The notes beneath the pieces are model-generated. The model made no database searches. It was not told where the DNA came from and saw only the letters and a list, made by a program, of their open reading frames with translations. Shown piece after piece: positions 41,084-62,873 of a stretch of DNA of 64,000 nucleotides. The stretch lies in NCBI RefSeq assembly GCF_000337815.1, contig NZ_AOLN01000006.1, positions 186,001-250,000 of the forward strand. The letters are read 5' to 3'. The DNA comes from Haloferax mucosum ATCC BAA-1512. Its GTDB lineage: Archaea; Halobacteriota; Halobacteria; Halobacteriales; Haloferacaceae. Both the position numbers and the translations under genes were made by a program. Every line of letters starts with the position of its first letter. Position 1 is the stretch's first letter.

Positions 41084-41295
41084 CAACGAAACAACCTATT
41101 TCGACGATTAATCAGTTCTAAACGACAACAGATTCGACCGTATCCGTGGCTCTCCCCGTGATAATGAGTGGTTAACGCCTCCATCGAGTCACTCAGTTTT
41201 TCCTGATAATCTGATAGAGCGCATACACTTGCCCATCACAACGCTTATGTCCGCGTTCGTACTGCAATTCACGCAATGGCGAGGGGACCGAACCT

Positions 41296-42486
41296 ATGAA
41301 GCTCGCAATGATCGGATTCGGGCAAGCCGGGGGAAAAGTAGTCGACAAATTTGTCGAGTACGACCGCGAACGCAACGCCGGAATCGTCCGCGCGGCGGTC
41401 GCGGTGAACTCGGCGAAAGCCGACTTGCTCGGATTAAAGAACATCCCGAAGGACCAGCGCGTCCTCATCGGCCAGTCCCGCGTGAAGGGACACGGCGTCG
41501 GTGCGGACAACGAACTCGGTGCCGAAATCGCCGAGGAGGATATCGACGAGGTACAGGGTGCTATCGACAGCATCCCCGTCCACGAAGTGGACGCCTTCCT
41601 CGTCGTCTCCGGTCTCGGTGGCGGTACCGGGTCCGGTGGCGCGCCGGTTCTCGCAAAGCATCTCAAGCGCATCTACACTGAGCCTGTGTACGGTCTCGGC
41701 ATCCTGCCGGGGTCCGACGAGGGTGGTATCTACACGCTCAACGCCGCGCGCTCCTTCCAGACGTTTGTCCGCGAGGTTGACAACCTCCTCGTGTTCGACA
41801 ACGACGCCTGGCGGAAGACCGGCGAGTCGGTACAGGGTGGTTACGATGAGATTAACGAAGAGATTGTCAACCGCTTCGGCGTGCTCTTCGGCGCTGGCGA
41901 AGTCCAAGACGGACAGGAAGTCGCAGAGTCCGTCGTAGACTCGTCGGAAATTATCAACACGCTCGCAGGCGGCGGCGTTTCGACCGTCGGCTACGCGTCC
42001 GAAGACGTCGAGCCACGGAAGAATAAGAAGAGCGGCGGCCTCCTGTCGCGGCTCACCGGGGGCGACGAACCCGACGACAATCTCGACACCGCGCACACGA
42101 CGAACCGAATCACCAGCCTCGTGCGCAAGGCCGCACTCGGTCGTCTCACGCTTCCGTGTGAGATCGAAGGTGCGGAGCGCGCGCTACTCGTGCTTGCTGG
42201 TCCGCCGGAGCATCTGAACCGGAAAGGCATAGAGCGCGGGCGGAAATGGATCGAGGAGCAGACCGGTTCCATGGAAGTTCGCGGCGGCGACTACCCGATT
42301 CCGGGCGCAGGGAAGGTGGCTGGTGTCATCCTTCTTTCGGGCGTGACGAACGTCCCGCGCATCAAAGAGCTACAGCAGGTTGCCATCGAAGCCCAGGACA
42401 ACATCGAAGAGATCAAACAGGAGAGCGATTCCAATCTGGAGAACCTCGTAAACGATGACGAAGACGAACTGGAGTCGCTTTTCTAA
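41296..42486 (+). CDS. cetZ1: Tubulin-superfamily cell-shape GTPase CetZ1
   Basis: 396 residues. N-terminal GTPase fold: the first loop FGQAGGKVVDKF and the tubulin/FtsZ signature SGLGGGTGSGGAP near residues 108-120. The C-terminal domain is of CetZ type and ends with an acidic tail (LVNDDEDELESLF). In H. volcanii CetZ1 is needed for rod development and motility, controlling cell shape rather than division. SD-like GAGGGGA sits about 8-14 bases before the ATG at 41296. The 3' end overlaps the next gene by 32 bases. Confidence 0.96.
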   Translation: MKLAMIGFGQAGGKVVDKFVEYDRERNAGIVRAAVAVNSAKADLLGLKNIPKDQRVLIGQSRVKGHGVGADNELGAEIAEEDIDEVQGAIDSIPVHEVDAFLVVSGLGGGTGSGGAPVLAKHLKRIYTEPVYGLGILPGSDEGGIYTLNAARSFQTFVREVDNLLVFDNDAWRKTGESVQGGYDEINEEIVNRFGVLFGAGEVQDGQEVAESVVDSSEIINTLAGGGVSTVGYASEDVEPRKNKKSGGLLSRLTGGDEPDDNLDTAHTTNRITSLVRKAALGRLTLPCEIEGAERALLVLAGPPEHLNRKGIERGRKWIEEQTGSMEVRGGDYPIPGAGKVAGVILLSGVTNVPRIKELQQVAIEAQDNIEEIKQESDSNLENLVNDDEDELESLF

Positions 42487-59548: not shown

Positions 59549-59863
59549 TTACCGCGACTGATTTCGAATCTCGATGAGTCCAGCCGAATCGACGGTGACG
59601 ACGAGCGCACCGTACGAAAATTCGAGTGTCGCACCTGACAGCGACGGCGCTCTGGGAGATGAATCCCCGAATAGCGTATTGAGCGCGTCGATATCGGTGT
59701 ACGAGGTCAACGAAGGGAGCGAAGACGGGTCGCAGTTCGCGTGCTCACTCGCCGCCGAAACGATGGCCTCCGAGACAGATTTCGTGGAGTCGCAGTCGTA
59801 CCAAACTCGCGTCCGTTCTCGTTCGTCTTTTTGATGTGCGATAGCAGTGGTGATAGTTGACAC
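59549..59863 (-). CDS. HalOD1 output-domain protein (candidate DdfA)
   Basis: 104 residues from a GTG start. The region DSTKSVSEAIVSAASEHANC, then SYTDIDALNTLF and GATLEFSYGALVVTVDSAG, is the HalOD1 fold, a haloarchaea-specific signalling output domain. The gene lies directly beside the SMC-related and rdfA genes. In H. volcanii the disk-determining factor DdfA is, from memory, encoded beside rdfA; whether this is its orthologue is inference. A TATA-like GTAATATAAC is about 35-45 bases upstream. Confidence 0.82.
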   Translation of the reverse strand: MSTITTAIAHQKDERERTRVWYDCDSTKSVSEAIVSAASEHANCDPSSLPSLTSYTDIDALNTLFGDSSPRAPSLSGATLEFSYGALVVTVDSAGLIEIRNQSR

Positions 59864-60245
59864 CCCCGAGTGTCGTTCAATCGAAATGAATACGCGAAGT
59901 GTTATATTACTTGCGTACTGTCGGTATGTGCCCGTAGTAGTGCATATTTAGGGCAAGGCTATTCGCGGCGAGACGCCGCAACCACGCATCGTGACCGACG
60001 GCAGAGACCAATAAAACCGTGACGGCCGAACCAACCAATTTCGGCGTTCGGTAACGAAGACGGAAGAGTGTTGAAATCGGGTCGGATGCGGACGCGACCG
60101 TAGAAGAAGTCGCTGGAAGGGAGAGCAGAAGAGAGATGGTGAGAAGGCACCGGAAAGCAGTAGTGGAGAAGACGGAGCAGAGACAGATAGAGTGGAGAAC
60201 GGCCAGAATAAAAATACAGACAGGAACGGGAGCGTTACGCGTGAC
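59864..60245. other. Intergenic region with purine-rich tract, 3' of the SMC-related gene
   Basis: About 380 bases. It holds the HalOD1 gene promoter, a hairpin GCGGCG-AGA-CGCCGC (near 59966-59980) and a G/A-rich stretch (60090-60235). Read on the minus strand this is C/T-rich just downstream of the SMC-related gene and likely includes its termination zone. No coding frame is convincing. Confidence 0.5.
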
Positions 60246-62204
60246 CTACGCGGCCGAGGTGACGCCGTCACCCCACGTGACGCGGTCGTAGTCCGAATCG
60301 AGCGCTTGGGCGTCTTCGGGCAGGAGCGCGGCGACGAGGAACGCCGGGTACTGTTCGAAGTGTTCGACTAGCGCGGCGATGCGCTCGGAGTCGATCGCTT
60401 CGAGCGAATCGAGGAGCATGAACGGCACGTCTTCGTACACCTCGTGGACGAGATAGCCCGCGAGGGCGAACACGAGACCGATAACCTCGCGTTCGCTCTC
60501 GCTCAGGTGGTCGATAGAATCTTCATAGACCGCGCCCGAGTCGGACTCTCTGACGATGTGCAGTTCGAACTGCGTCTGAAGCACCTTTCTGCGGCCCTCA
60601 CGGACGCGGCGTTCGACTCGCTCTAACCAAACGCGTTCGATGTTGTCGTAGCCGAGGAGGCCGAGCACCGTCTCCATCTCGTCGTTGAACGCCTCGACGG
60701 CCGACTCGGTGAGCGTCTGAATGCGGGTTCGCGCGTCTTCGAGGTCGGCGGTCAGTCGCTCGTGTTCGTCTTCGAGCGACGACCGCGTATCGAATTTCGA
60801 ATCGAGCGCTTCGAGGTCGTCGTGGACCGCCGCGAGGTCGTCTCGCGCACGGTCGAGCGAGAATTCGACTTCGTTCAGTTCTTTGTGGAGTTCGATGAGG
60901 TCACCGTCTGCCTGCCCGCGAAGGTCGGACGCGTCGGCTTCCAGTTCCTCCACGCGCTCGACGAGTTCTTCGCGCTGTTCGGTCAGCGACGCGATTTGGT
61001 CGGTTCGGCGGTCGAGTTCGTCTTCGAGACGGCCGAGTTTCTGACGCGTCTGTTGGCGCTCGCGCTGTGATTTCTCGGCCGTCCGAAGGTCGCTTTCGAG
61101 GTCGTCGAGTTCGCGGCGGAGCGCCGAGCGCTGTTCGCGCTGGTCGTCCCTGACAGAACGGAGTCGGTCCGTCGTCTGACGAATCTGGTCGCGTTCGACC
61201 TCGGTTCCGCACGTCCAGCAGGTTATCATCTCCGACGAGAGCAGTTGGTCGGTGACCGCTCCGCCGTCGTCGGCGGTGAGCGTGTCCTCGACGAGGTCTG
61301 CCTTGCCGTCGAGCACGTCTTCGGTGTACTGGATGACCGTCTGAAGCTCCGAAACCGTCGTGTTCAACGACTCTATCTGCGTTCGAATCTGGTCGATGCG
61401 GGCCGTCACGTCCTCGTGGTCAATGTCCGCCGCGTCGAACGAGTCGAGTTCGGATTCGAGTTCCGAGCGTTCCTGCCGGAGCGATTCGACGCTGTCGCGC
61501 TCGCTCTGTAAGCGGAATCGAACGGTTTCGAGCTCCGAGCGCGCCGACTGGAGGTCCGAAAGCACCTCGTCCAGCTCGGCTTGGTTCTCGCGTTGTGCCT
61601 CGACAGTCTGGTCTTCTTCCTCGATACGCGTCGCAAGTTGATCGCGCTCGGCTTCGAGGTCCTCGATTTTTGATTCGAGGGATGCTTGCTTCGTTTCGAG
61701 CGACTGCCGCTCGGATTCGAGCGATTCGAGCGACTCCAACTGGCTTTCGACCTGCTTGCGTTCGGTCTGTAACTGCTCGATTTCGGTCTCGATGGCGTCG
61801 GTATCGACCGGTGCCATGATGACATCGTGCAGGTCCCGTTTTGCGATAACTGCTCGGCGAGCCTCGTTCGACCCGAGGAGAAACGCGAACAGGTCTGCGG
61901 TCGTCGTATCCTGCAGATACGGCGTTCCGTTGACACTCACTCGCCCGTGTTCTCGCTTGAGAATCCGCGTGAATGACCGACCGTCGAGTTCGAGTTCGAC
62001 CGAGCCTTCGTCCGCGTCGCCTTTGAGACTTACCGCGTCGCTTCCGCACGCACCCATGAGTGCGCGCAAAAAGGACGTGCGGTTCGTCGCGTTTCGTCCG
62101 GTGAGGACGGTTACCCCCGGTGAGAGAGTGACAGTGCGCTCGTCGATTCCCCCAAGGTTGTTGATTCGAACGGTTGCTTCCTCGTGTGCCTCTGAGTGGT
62201 TCAT
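60246..62204 (-). CDS. Archaea-specific SMC-related protein with zinc-hook motif and degenerate Walker motifs
   Basis: 652 residues: N-terminal ATPase half, two long coiled-coil arms, a CxxC hook in the middle (C329-W-T-C332, as in Rad50), and a C-terminal half with signature LSESEREVIGLVFALAG and FMLLDSLEAID. Walker A is GRNATNRTS at residues 36-44, with Arg in place of the invariant Lys, and the Walker B Asp is followed by Ser rather than Glu. The family is known from haloarchaea and H. volcanii cell-shape genetics (Sph3, from memory). It is encoded 27 bases downstream of rdfA and is probably co-transcribed. Confidence 0.92.
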   Translation of the reverse strand: MNHSEAHEEATVRINNLGGIDERTVTLSPGVTVLTGRNATNRTSFLRALMGACGSDAVSLKGDADEGSVELELDGRSFTRILKREHGRVSVNGTPYLQDTTTADLFAFLLGSNEARRAVIAKRDLHDVIMAPVDTDAIETEIEQLQTERKQVESQLESLESLESERQSLETKQASLESKIEDLEAERDQLATRIEEEDQTVEAQRENQAELDEVLSDLQSARSELETVRFRLQSERDSVESLRQERSELESELDSFDAADIDHEDVTARIDQIRTQIESLNTTVSELQTVIQYTEDVLDGKADLVEDTLTADDGGAVTDQLLSSEMITCWTCGTEVERDQIRQTTDRLRSVRDDQREQRSALRRELDDLESDLRTAEKSQRERQQTRQKLGRLEDELDRRTDQIASLTEQREELVERVEELEADASDLRGQADGDLIELHKELNEVEFSLDRARDDLAAVHDDLEALDSKFDTRSSLEDEHERLTADLEDARTRIQTLTESAVEAFNDEMETVLGLLGYDNIERVWLERVERRVREGRRKVLQTQFELHIVRESDSGAVYEDSIDHLSESEREVIGLVFALAGYLVHEVYEDVPFMLLDSLEAIDSERIAALVEHFEQYPAFLVAALLPEDAQALDSDYDRVTWGDGVTSAA

Positions 62205-62231
62205 GTGAAGAGAGATTGTACCCGACGTGTG

Positions 62232-62873
62232 CTACCCGTCATCCTCGTGTTCGCAGTTGCAGTGCCCGGAAGAGAGGAGCGCCGTCGGTGTCAGTCGTGT
62301 TTCGCAGTCTGTACAGGTGACGCGGATGTCAACATCGACTTCGTACTCACCGATGGCGACCGCTTGCGCCTTGACGAGCCGGTCGATAACGTCGATGGTC
62401 ACCGTCCGGAGCCGCGACCGGAGTTTTCGAATCGTGTTTAGCCCGGATTCGGCCGCGGGTTCGTCGTCGTCAGTGTCACGTTCGACGTTCCGATGTCGCT
62501 TGAGGTAGTTGTACACCGACTGGTAGGAGATGATGTCCGCCTCCAGTTGGTCGATATCAACTCCCTTCTCTCGGAGCGTGTTCCGCGCCTCGGTGCGACT
62601 CCCGGCGGTCACGTCGTCACTCGTTAAGAGCCGATAGAAGTTATCGACTTCACCGTCGAGGACGTGCGCGCCCGCCTCGTCGAGCGCGGCCCGGATGAGT
62701 CGTCTGTTGACGTCTCCTTCGAGTTCGCGGAGGCTCCGCTGTTCTCGACCCTCGCCGAGCCATGCAGCGACGATGTCGTCACCGAGACCGGAGATTCCGT
62801 ACCGGTCTGCGATTCGTTCTATTTTTGGGCCCCGACCGCCGCGGCGGGAAACCTTGGTTCCTGTCTTGCGCAT
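62232..62873 (-). CDS. rdfA: Rod-determining factor RdfA
   Basis: 213 residues. Starts MRKTGTKVSRRGGRGPKIER and continues IADRYGISGLGDDIVAAWLG, the RdfA N-terminal block; a helical centre contains LREKGVDIDQLEADIISYQS; the C-terminus has zinc-like cysteines (TCTDCETRL, CNCEHEDDG). RdfA is required for the rod morphology of H. volcanii. It lies directly upstream of the SMC-related gene, and the HalOD1 gene follows. Promoter AATATTTACAG is about 35-45 bases upstream on the minus strand. Confidence 0.9.
   Translation of the reverse strand: MRKTGTKVSRRGGRGPKIERIADRYGISGLGDDIVAAWLGEGREQRSLRELEGDVNRRLIRAALDEAGAHVLDGEVDNFYRLLTSDDVTAGSRTEARNTLREKGVDIDQLEADIISYQSVYNYLKRHRNVERDTDDDEPAAESGLNTIRKLRSRLRTVTIDVIDRLVKAQAVAIGEYEVDVDIRVTCTDCETRLTPTALLSSGHCNCEHEDDG

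Follow-up and report, generated by a model that had tools for sequence, protein, structure and literature searches.

Genes at the locus

Three genes associated with cell shape lie in a row on the minus strand of the window, by which is meant the whole 64,000-nucleotide stretch of Haloferax mucosum DNA that was analysed (source genome 3.37 Mb, 20 contigs), where they occupy positions 62873-59549 and are transcribed in the order rdfA, sph3, ddfA:

62232..62873, minus strand: rdfA, rod-determining factor A, 213 amino acids, ATG start (PF21811)
62205..62231, minus strand: gap of 27 bases between rdfA and sph3, which are likely to share one transcript
60246..62204, minus strand: sph3, archaea-specific SMC-related protein (ASRP), 652 amino acids (NF045487)
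59549..59863, minus strand: ddfA, disk-determining factor A, a single HalOD1 domain, 104 amino acids from GTG (NF053557, PF18545)

Each product is placed in its family by a curated profile. RdfA scores 232 bits against Pfam PF21811 (cut-off 27; profile positions 1-195 covered), Sph3 scores 666 bits against the ASRP family NCBIfam NF045487 (cut-off 300; profile positions 1-593), and DdfA scores 74.3 bits against NCBIfam NF053557 (cut-off 70), with a HalOD1 domain that reaches 54 bits against Pfam PF18545 (cut-off 26.3). The original prediction, which had read from this DNA three minus-strand genes in the above order bearing the signatures of shape factors, the first two of them 27 bases apart, is thus borne out on both counts. 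It had also placed cetZ1 about 20 kb away; a gene of the CetZ/FtsZ superfamily does lie at 41218-42483 on the plus strand, and its assignment holds to the level of the superfamily.

The shape functions named in the original prediction agree with the deletion phenotypes of all three genes in H. volcanii, where the rdfA and sph3 mutants form only disks and are non-motile, and the ddfA mutant forms only rods and is hypermotile (PMC10869688, Schiller et al. 2024). The introduction of a 2026 paper (PMC13286277) states that deletion of Sph3 gives rods, which is the opposite of the disk-only phenotype in the 2024 paper that it cites and in PMC11276520. The H. volcanii genes rdfA (hvo_2174), sph3 (hvo_2175) and ddfA (hvo_2176) are the same genes as those described here, in the same order and with the same family assignments (PMC10869688). 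The trio is therefore the published set of Haloferax rod and disk shape genes in a further species, and as such is already known, as are the synteny of rdfA and sph3 across haloarchaea (an SMC gene adjoins 42 of 54 RdfA proteins) and the rarity with which ddfA clusters with them (PMC10869688). The new points are the loss of catalytic residues from ASRPs throughout the haloarchaea and the lack of an ordinary start codon in ddfA in nearly all Haloferax examined, and no description of either was found in PMC10869688.

Pairing of RdfA with ASRPs

When a family is counted as present if it scores above its curated cut-off, the presence and absence of RdfA and of ASRPs are identical in 116 of 116 haloarchaeal genomes: 97 genomes hold both, and the same 19 genomes, which are spread over at least eight families, hold neither. 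The two genes are also neighbours, with RdfA found within 2 kb of at least 111 of 157 ASRP genes. All four orientations are observed (among the matches listed, 68 linked pairs are in tandem with rdfA first, 17 are in tandem with the ASRP first, 18 are convergent and 8 are divergent), so the two genes stay linked although no single operon arrangement is fixed. The pairwise distances of the two proteins are correlated over 38 pairs with r=0.91, a value that includes shared species history, and no permutation exceeded 0.38. RdfA and the ASRP are, by co-occurrence and adjacency, a real two-gene unit, and the same linkage and co-occurrence give good support to the view that RdfA and Sph3 act together. 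RdfA is here the usual neighbour of ASRPs, whereas an earlier survey found no consensus flanking gene (PMC9389158). Among the matches listed, 24 of 57 ASRPs of the Sph3 class have no RdfA within 2 kb.

The sole clear pair found outside the haloarchaea is on a plasmid of Methanohalobium evestigatum (NC_014254.1; locus L103:3976-7141). Three genes stand in a row there: an ASRP whose Walker motifs are canonical, 45 bases downstream of it a relative of RdfA (35.7 bits; cut-off 27), and a winged-helix gene. Plasmids are a frequent location within the haloarchaea also: RdfA was found in 129 plasmid records, and of the 43 RdfA genes in 20 multi-replicon genomes, 22 are on secondary replicons, where 7.5 would be expected from the share of DNA, calculated with rounded genome sizes. 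A search of phage records and IMG/VR gave no RdfA match, and a candidate in a further non-haloarchaeal genome (G210; E 3e-5, below the cut-off) was rejected because it falls within the frame of a SurA-like lipoprotein.

All 10 loci found to carry close relatives of rdfA are from Haloferax, and the H. mucosum protein has 79-86% identity to its counterparts in 10 other Haloferax. Its recognizable feature is at the C-terminus:

62253..62315, minus strand: zinc-ribbon-like motif of RdfA, C187-x2-C190 ... C205-x-C207

This motif is kept in most RdfA relatives, C187 and C190 being almost invariant. An AlphaFold2 model built from 11 Haloferax sequences is all-helical but of low confidence (pLDDT 65.5). 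No fold of an SMC partner is seen in it, nor the tandem winged helices of KITE-type partners (ScpB, MukE, Nse1), although at this confidence RdfA may still be a partner of the KITE type. Foldseek and VIA-align comparisons of this low-confidence model gave generic helical matches only, with no significant PDB match, and searches by sequence found no PDB relatives of Sph3 or RdfA.

Catalytic motifs of Sph3

Sph3 has the head, coiled-coil and hinge layout of Rad50 and SMC proteins, with a zinc hook as in Rad50, but it is much shorter and its catalytic motifs are degenerate:

62073..62099, minus strand: non-canonical Walker A or P-loop, G36-RNATNRTS-44, with Arg42 in place of Lys
61209..61220, minus strand: Rad50-like zinc hook C329-W-T-C332 at the coiled-coil tip
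60492..60506, minus strand: signature LSESE (canonical LSGGE/Q), residues 567-571
60405..60416, minus strand: Walker B LLD599-S600, with Ser in place of the catalytic Glu

The P-loop GRNATNRTS departs from the GxxGxGK[ST] of SMC and Rad50, and D599-S600 departs from the Asp-Glu of their Walker B, whereas the Rad50 and SMC proteins encoded in the same genome have canonical motifs. The label of coiled-coil ATPase in the original prediction is accordingly doubtful, since both the Walker A Lys and the Walker B Glu are replaced. The substitutions are not peculiar to H. mucosum: 31 aligned relatives carry the P-loop G-x-NATNRTS, the signature LSESE and the Walker B D-S.

A motif census of 83 ASRPs (57 of the Sph3 class, 6 intermediates, 14 short haloarchaeal proteins and 6 non-haloarchaeal proteins) extends this result. 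In the Sph3 class, 57/57 proteins have Arg where Walker A would carry its Lys, and Ser where Walker B would carry its Glu. The six intermediates have the P-loop NASNKTS, in which the Lys is kept and Asn stands for the preceding Gly (L148, L154, L128, L132, L134 and L137, from genomes G114, G059, G063, G032, G004 and G023), and in the 14 short proteins GKS is retained while Gly, Arg or Gln replaces the Walker B Glu, a residue found in 0/77 haloarchaeal ASRPs. Among the proteins from outside the haloarchaea, the Walker A Lys is present in 6/6 and the Walker B Glu in 3/6. The Q-loop Gln and the H-loop His are also absent from nearly all of the 83, and the CxxC zinc hook is present in 82. In a quick tree the haloarchaeal ASRPs form one clade, and a small Lys-bearing group, consisting of four NASNKTS proteins, is nested inside the Arg class, which makes a reversion to Lys possible in these proteins.

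The invariance of the P-loop argues for function, and the Sph3 head is therefore read as changed, not decaying. RecA and Rad51 mutants with Lys replaced by Arg hold nucleotide without turning it over; by analogy, Sph3 is likely to bind nucleotide without turnover, and its odd but conserved motifs can still be compatible with such binding. The Sph and ClsN ASRPs treated in PMC9389158 share with Sph3 an SMC-like head, a coiled coil, a CxxC zinc hook and membership of NF045487, but Walker A and B were counted there as present, whereas in Sph3 the Walker A Lys and the Walker B Glu are replaced. The degenerate motifs are not discussed in that paper, and no description of them was found in the literature searched, which does not in itself establish novelty.

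Linkage and independence of ddfA

DdfA has a single HalOD1 domain, as do other HalOD1 output-domain proteins, but differs from them in being linked to rdfA and sph3 across its genus and in lacking, in most of that genus, an ordinary start codon. The order rdfA, sph3, ddfA is kept in 9/9 loci from other Haloferax that are long enough to span all three genes, including two (L098 and L099) from which the usual flanking genes are absent, and an arrangement that persists in this way is not chance. Outside the genus, a DdfA-like gene lies within 1 kb of an rdfA-ASRP pair only in G047 and G055, both members of a single genus in a different family. With a multi-copy family that reaches up to 47 DdfA-like genes, one further neighbour of this kind is close to the chance expectation. 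In both genomes (L028:2359-2769 and L056:19-381) the DdfA-like HalOD1 gene is divergent from rdfA and adjoins the rdfA-ASRP pair. Of the 97 genomes with RdfA, 84 have a match to the DdfA family, as do 16 of the 19 without it (116 haloarchaeal genomes; Fisher p=0.72), so that DdfA does not share the co-occurrence of the other two. The proposed comparison of gene order across haloarchaea thus finds the rdfA-ASRP pair linked widely, but ddfA linked to it throughout Haloferax and hardly elsewhere.

The transcription of ddfA also appears to be its own:

59900..59917, minus strand: TATA-like core promoter of ddfA, conserved (TACGCAAGTAATATAACA) and separate from rdfA-sph3

The block TACGCAAG(A/T)AATATAACA is near-identical in 10/10 Haloferax, while its surroundings diverge. 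A stretch between sph3 and ddfA (59948-60245) is pyrimidine-rich and non-coding-looking, and the aligned ddfA-proximal part is unconserved in other Haloferax except for the ddfA promoter. A fold search with DdfA gave no significant match; its top rows were roadblock/Ragulator proteins at E 0.4, for which no relationship is claimed. The idea of one three-gene system consequently divides, the RdfA-ASRP pair standing on its occurrence in 116/116 genomes and its linkage, and DdfA falling outside it in view of p=0.72 and a promoter of its own.

Proposed mechanism and alternatives

Sph3 and RdfA are among the few genetic handles on the way in which archaea set their cell shape. In the reading that we consider somewhat favoured, RdfA and Sph3 would act on the nucleoid as an SMC-like clamp, one that does not cycle and is needed for rods, and DdfA would act as the output of a density signal that lowers both. 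RdfA, with its helical core and C-terminal zinc ribbon, would be the dedicated partner of Sph3 in a two-protein unit required for rods; Sph3 would most likely be a static clamp or scaffold on the nucleoid, dimerised by its zinc hook, for which nucleotide binding is possible and a cycle of ATP hydrolysis is not expected. DdfA would be a small signalling output protein expressed from its own promoter that, as population density rises, lowers RdfA and Sph3 and so turns rods into disks. Physical binding of RdfA to Sph3, the location on the nucleoid and the absence of ATP turnover are all three steps that we infer. The link to DNA is counted in favour of a nucleoid clamp on three grounds: the gene-conversion defect of the sph3 mutant, whose survival in the assay falls to ~20% (PMC11276520), the binding of chromosomes by the Sph relative coalescin ClsN (PMC9764264), and the enrichment of RdfA on secondary replicons. 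Survival in the gene-conversion assay is scored after protoplast fusion, and a shape defect could disturb the readout.

The same two proteins could instead be a cytoskeletal scaffold, with the coiled coils of Sph3 shaping the cell directly at the envelope together with CetZ1 and any DNA effects being secondary. In its favour, the phenotype is cleanly disk-only and growth is not impaired (PMC10869688), SMC-like coiled-coil proteins that are cytoskeletal exist in arcadin-4 and in Anabaena (cited in PMC10869688), and a non-hydrolysing head would fit a structural role; nevertheless this alternative seems somewhat unlikely, given that survival in the gene-conversion assay is reduced in all four sph deletions (PMC11276520), that RdfA genes are enriched on plasmids, and that no membrane or filament feature is seen in the sequences. 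It is decidedly improbable that the pair is a canonical ATP-driven, SMC-like machine in which RdfA or some other residues restore catalysis: the Walker A Lys, the Walker B Glu, the signature glycines, the Q-loop Gln and the H-loop His are all missing, even though a P-loop region that is invariant in 57/57 proteins and is not decaying must be under strong selection, and the P-loop Lys returns in a nested clade.

The original prediction had the trio possibly joining a signal to a coiled-coil ATPase and RdfA, which leads to a single signalling complex in which DdfA binds RdfA and Sph3 directly; such a complex was considered possible by Schiller et al. (PMC10869688). The linkage of the trio throughout the genus, also where the flanks change, and the DdfA-like gene beside the pair in one other genus speak for it; we regard it as unlikely, because the 116 genomes show no tendency for DdfA to occur together with RdfA, the DdfA-like neighbour outside Haloferax is near chance for a multi-copy family, and ddfA has its own promoter. 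Published work bears on the same question: DdfA is required for the density-dependent change from rods to disks, RdfA and Sph3 drop strongly in conditioned medium, and in the ddfA mutant the change in RdfA is lost and that in Sph3 is smaller (PMC12240190). This response makes it more likely that DdfA is an upstream regulator of RdfA and Sph3.

A broader evolutionary reading, which we offer tentatively and judge to fall short of probable, is that the haloarchaeal Sph3 class has retired from catalysis within the SMC superfamily, its fixed NATNRTS/D-S head clamping without an ATP cycle and RdfA always being kept alongside. The ancestor of the pair would then be a module of ASRP and RdfA that used ATP and was carried on a plasmid, as in Methanohalobium, and that was recruited for shape. 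If Sph3 is indeed no ATPase, models of SMC loop extrusion and of Rad50 would not be applicable to it, and it would provide a natural test case for extrusion versus static capture, a choice that is open for its relative ClsN (PMC9764264). The strict pairing of RdfA with ASRPs, for its part, names a partner to seek.

The start of ddfA

The start codon of ddfA in H. volcanii is unsettled, GGG being one possibility (PMC10869688), and the present comparison extends this puzzle to the genus Haloferax:

59861..59866, minus strand: start region of ddfA, a GGG codon followed by GTG

In nine other Haloferax there is no in-frame ATG, GTG or TTG from the upstream stop to the conserved VWYDC core; their first ordinary start codon is no earlier than codon +33, and the open reading frame of H. 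elongans (L098) has none at all. Two codons, the GGG and an ATC that follows it by four codons, are in frame in 10/10 Haloferax (59852-59866, minus strand, in H. mucosum; loci L093-L102), which suggests that translation may start between them. The lack of an ordinary start codon across nearly all of the genus makes ddfA a tractable case of unusual translation initiation in archaea. A GTG one codon after the GGG is found in H. mucosum alone among the 10, and it is here that H. mucosum differs from H. volcanii. An extension of 126 nt as in H. volcanii was considered for the H. mucosum gene and rejected, as the frame is closed by a stop 84 nt upstream of the GTG; such an extension is also unneeded, since the GTG already occupies the equivalent position.
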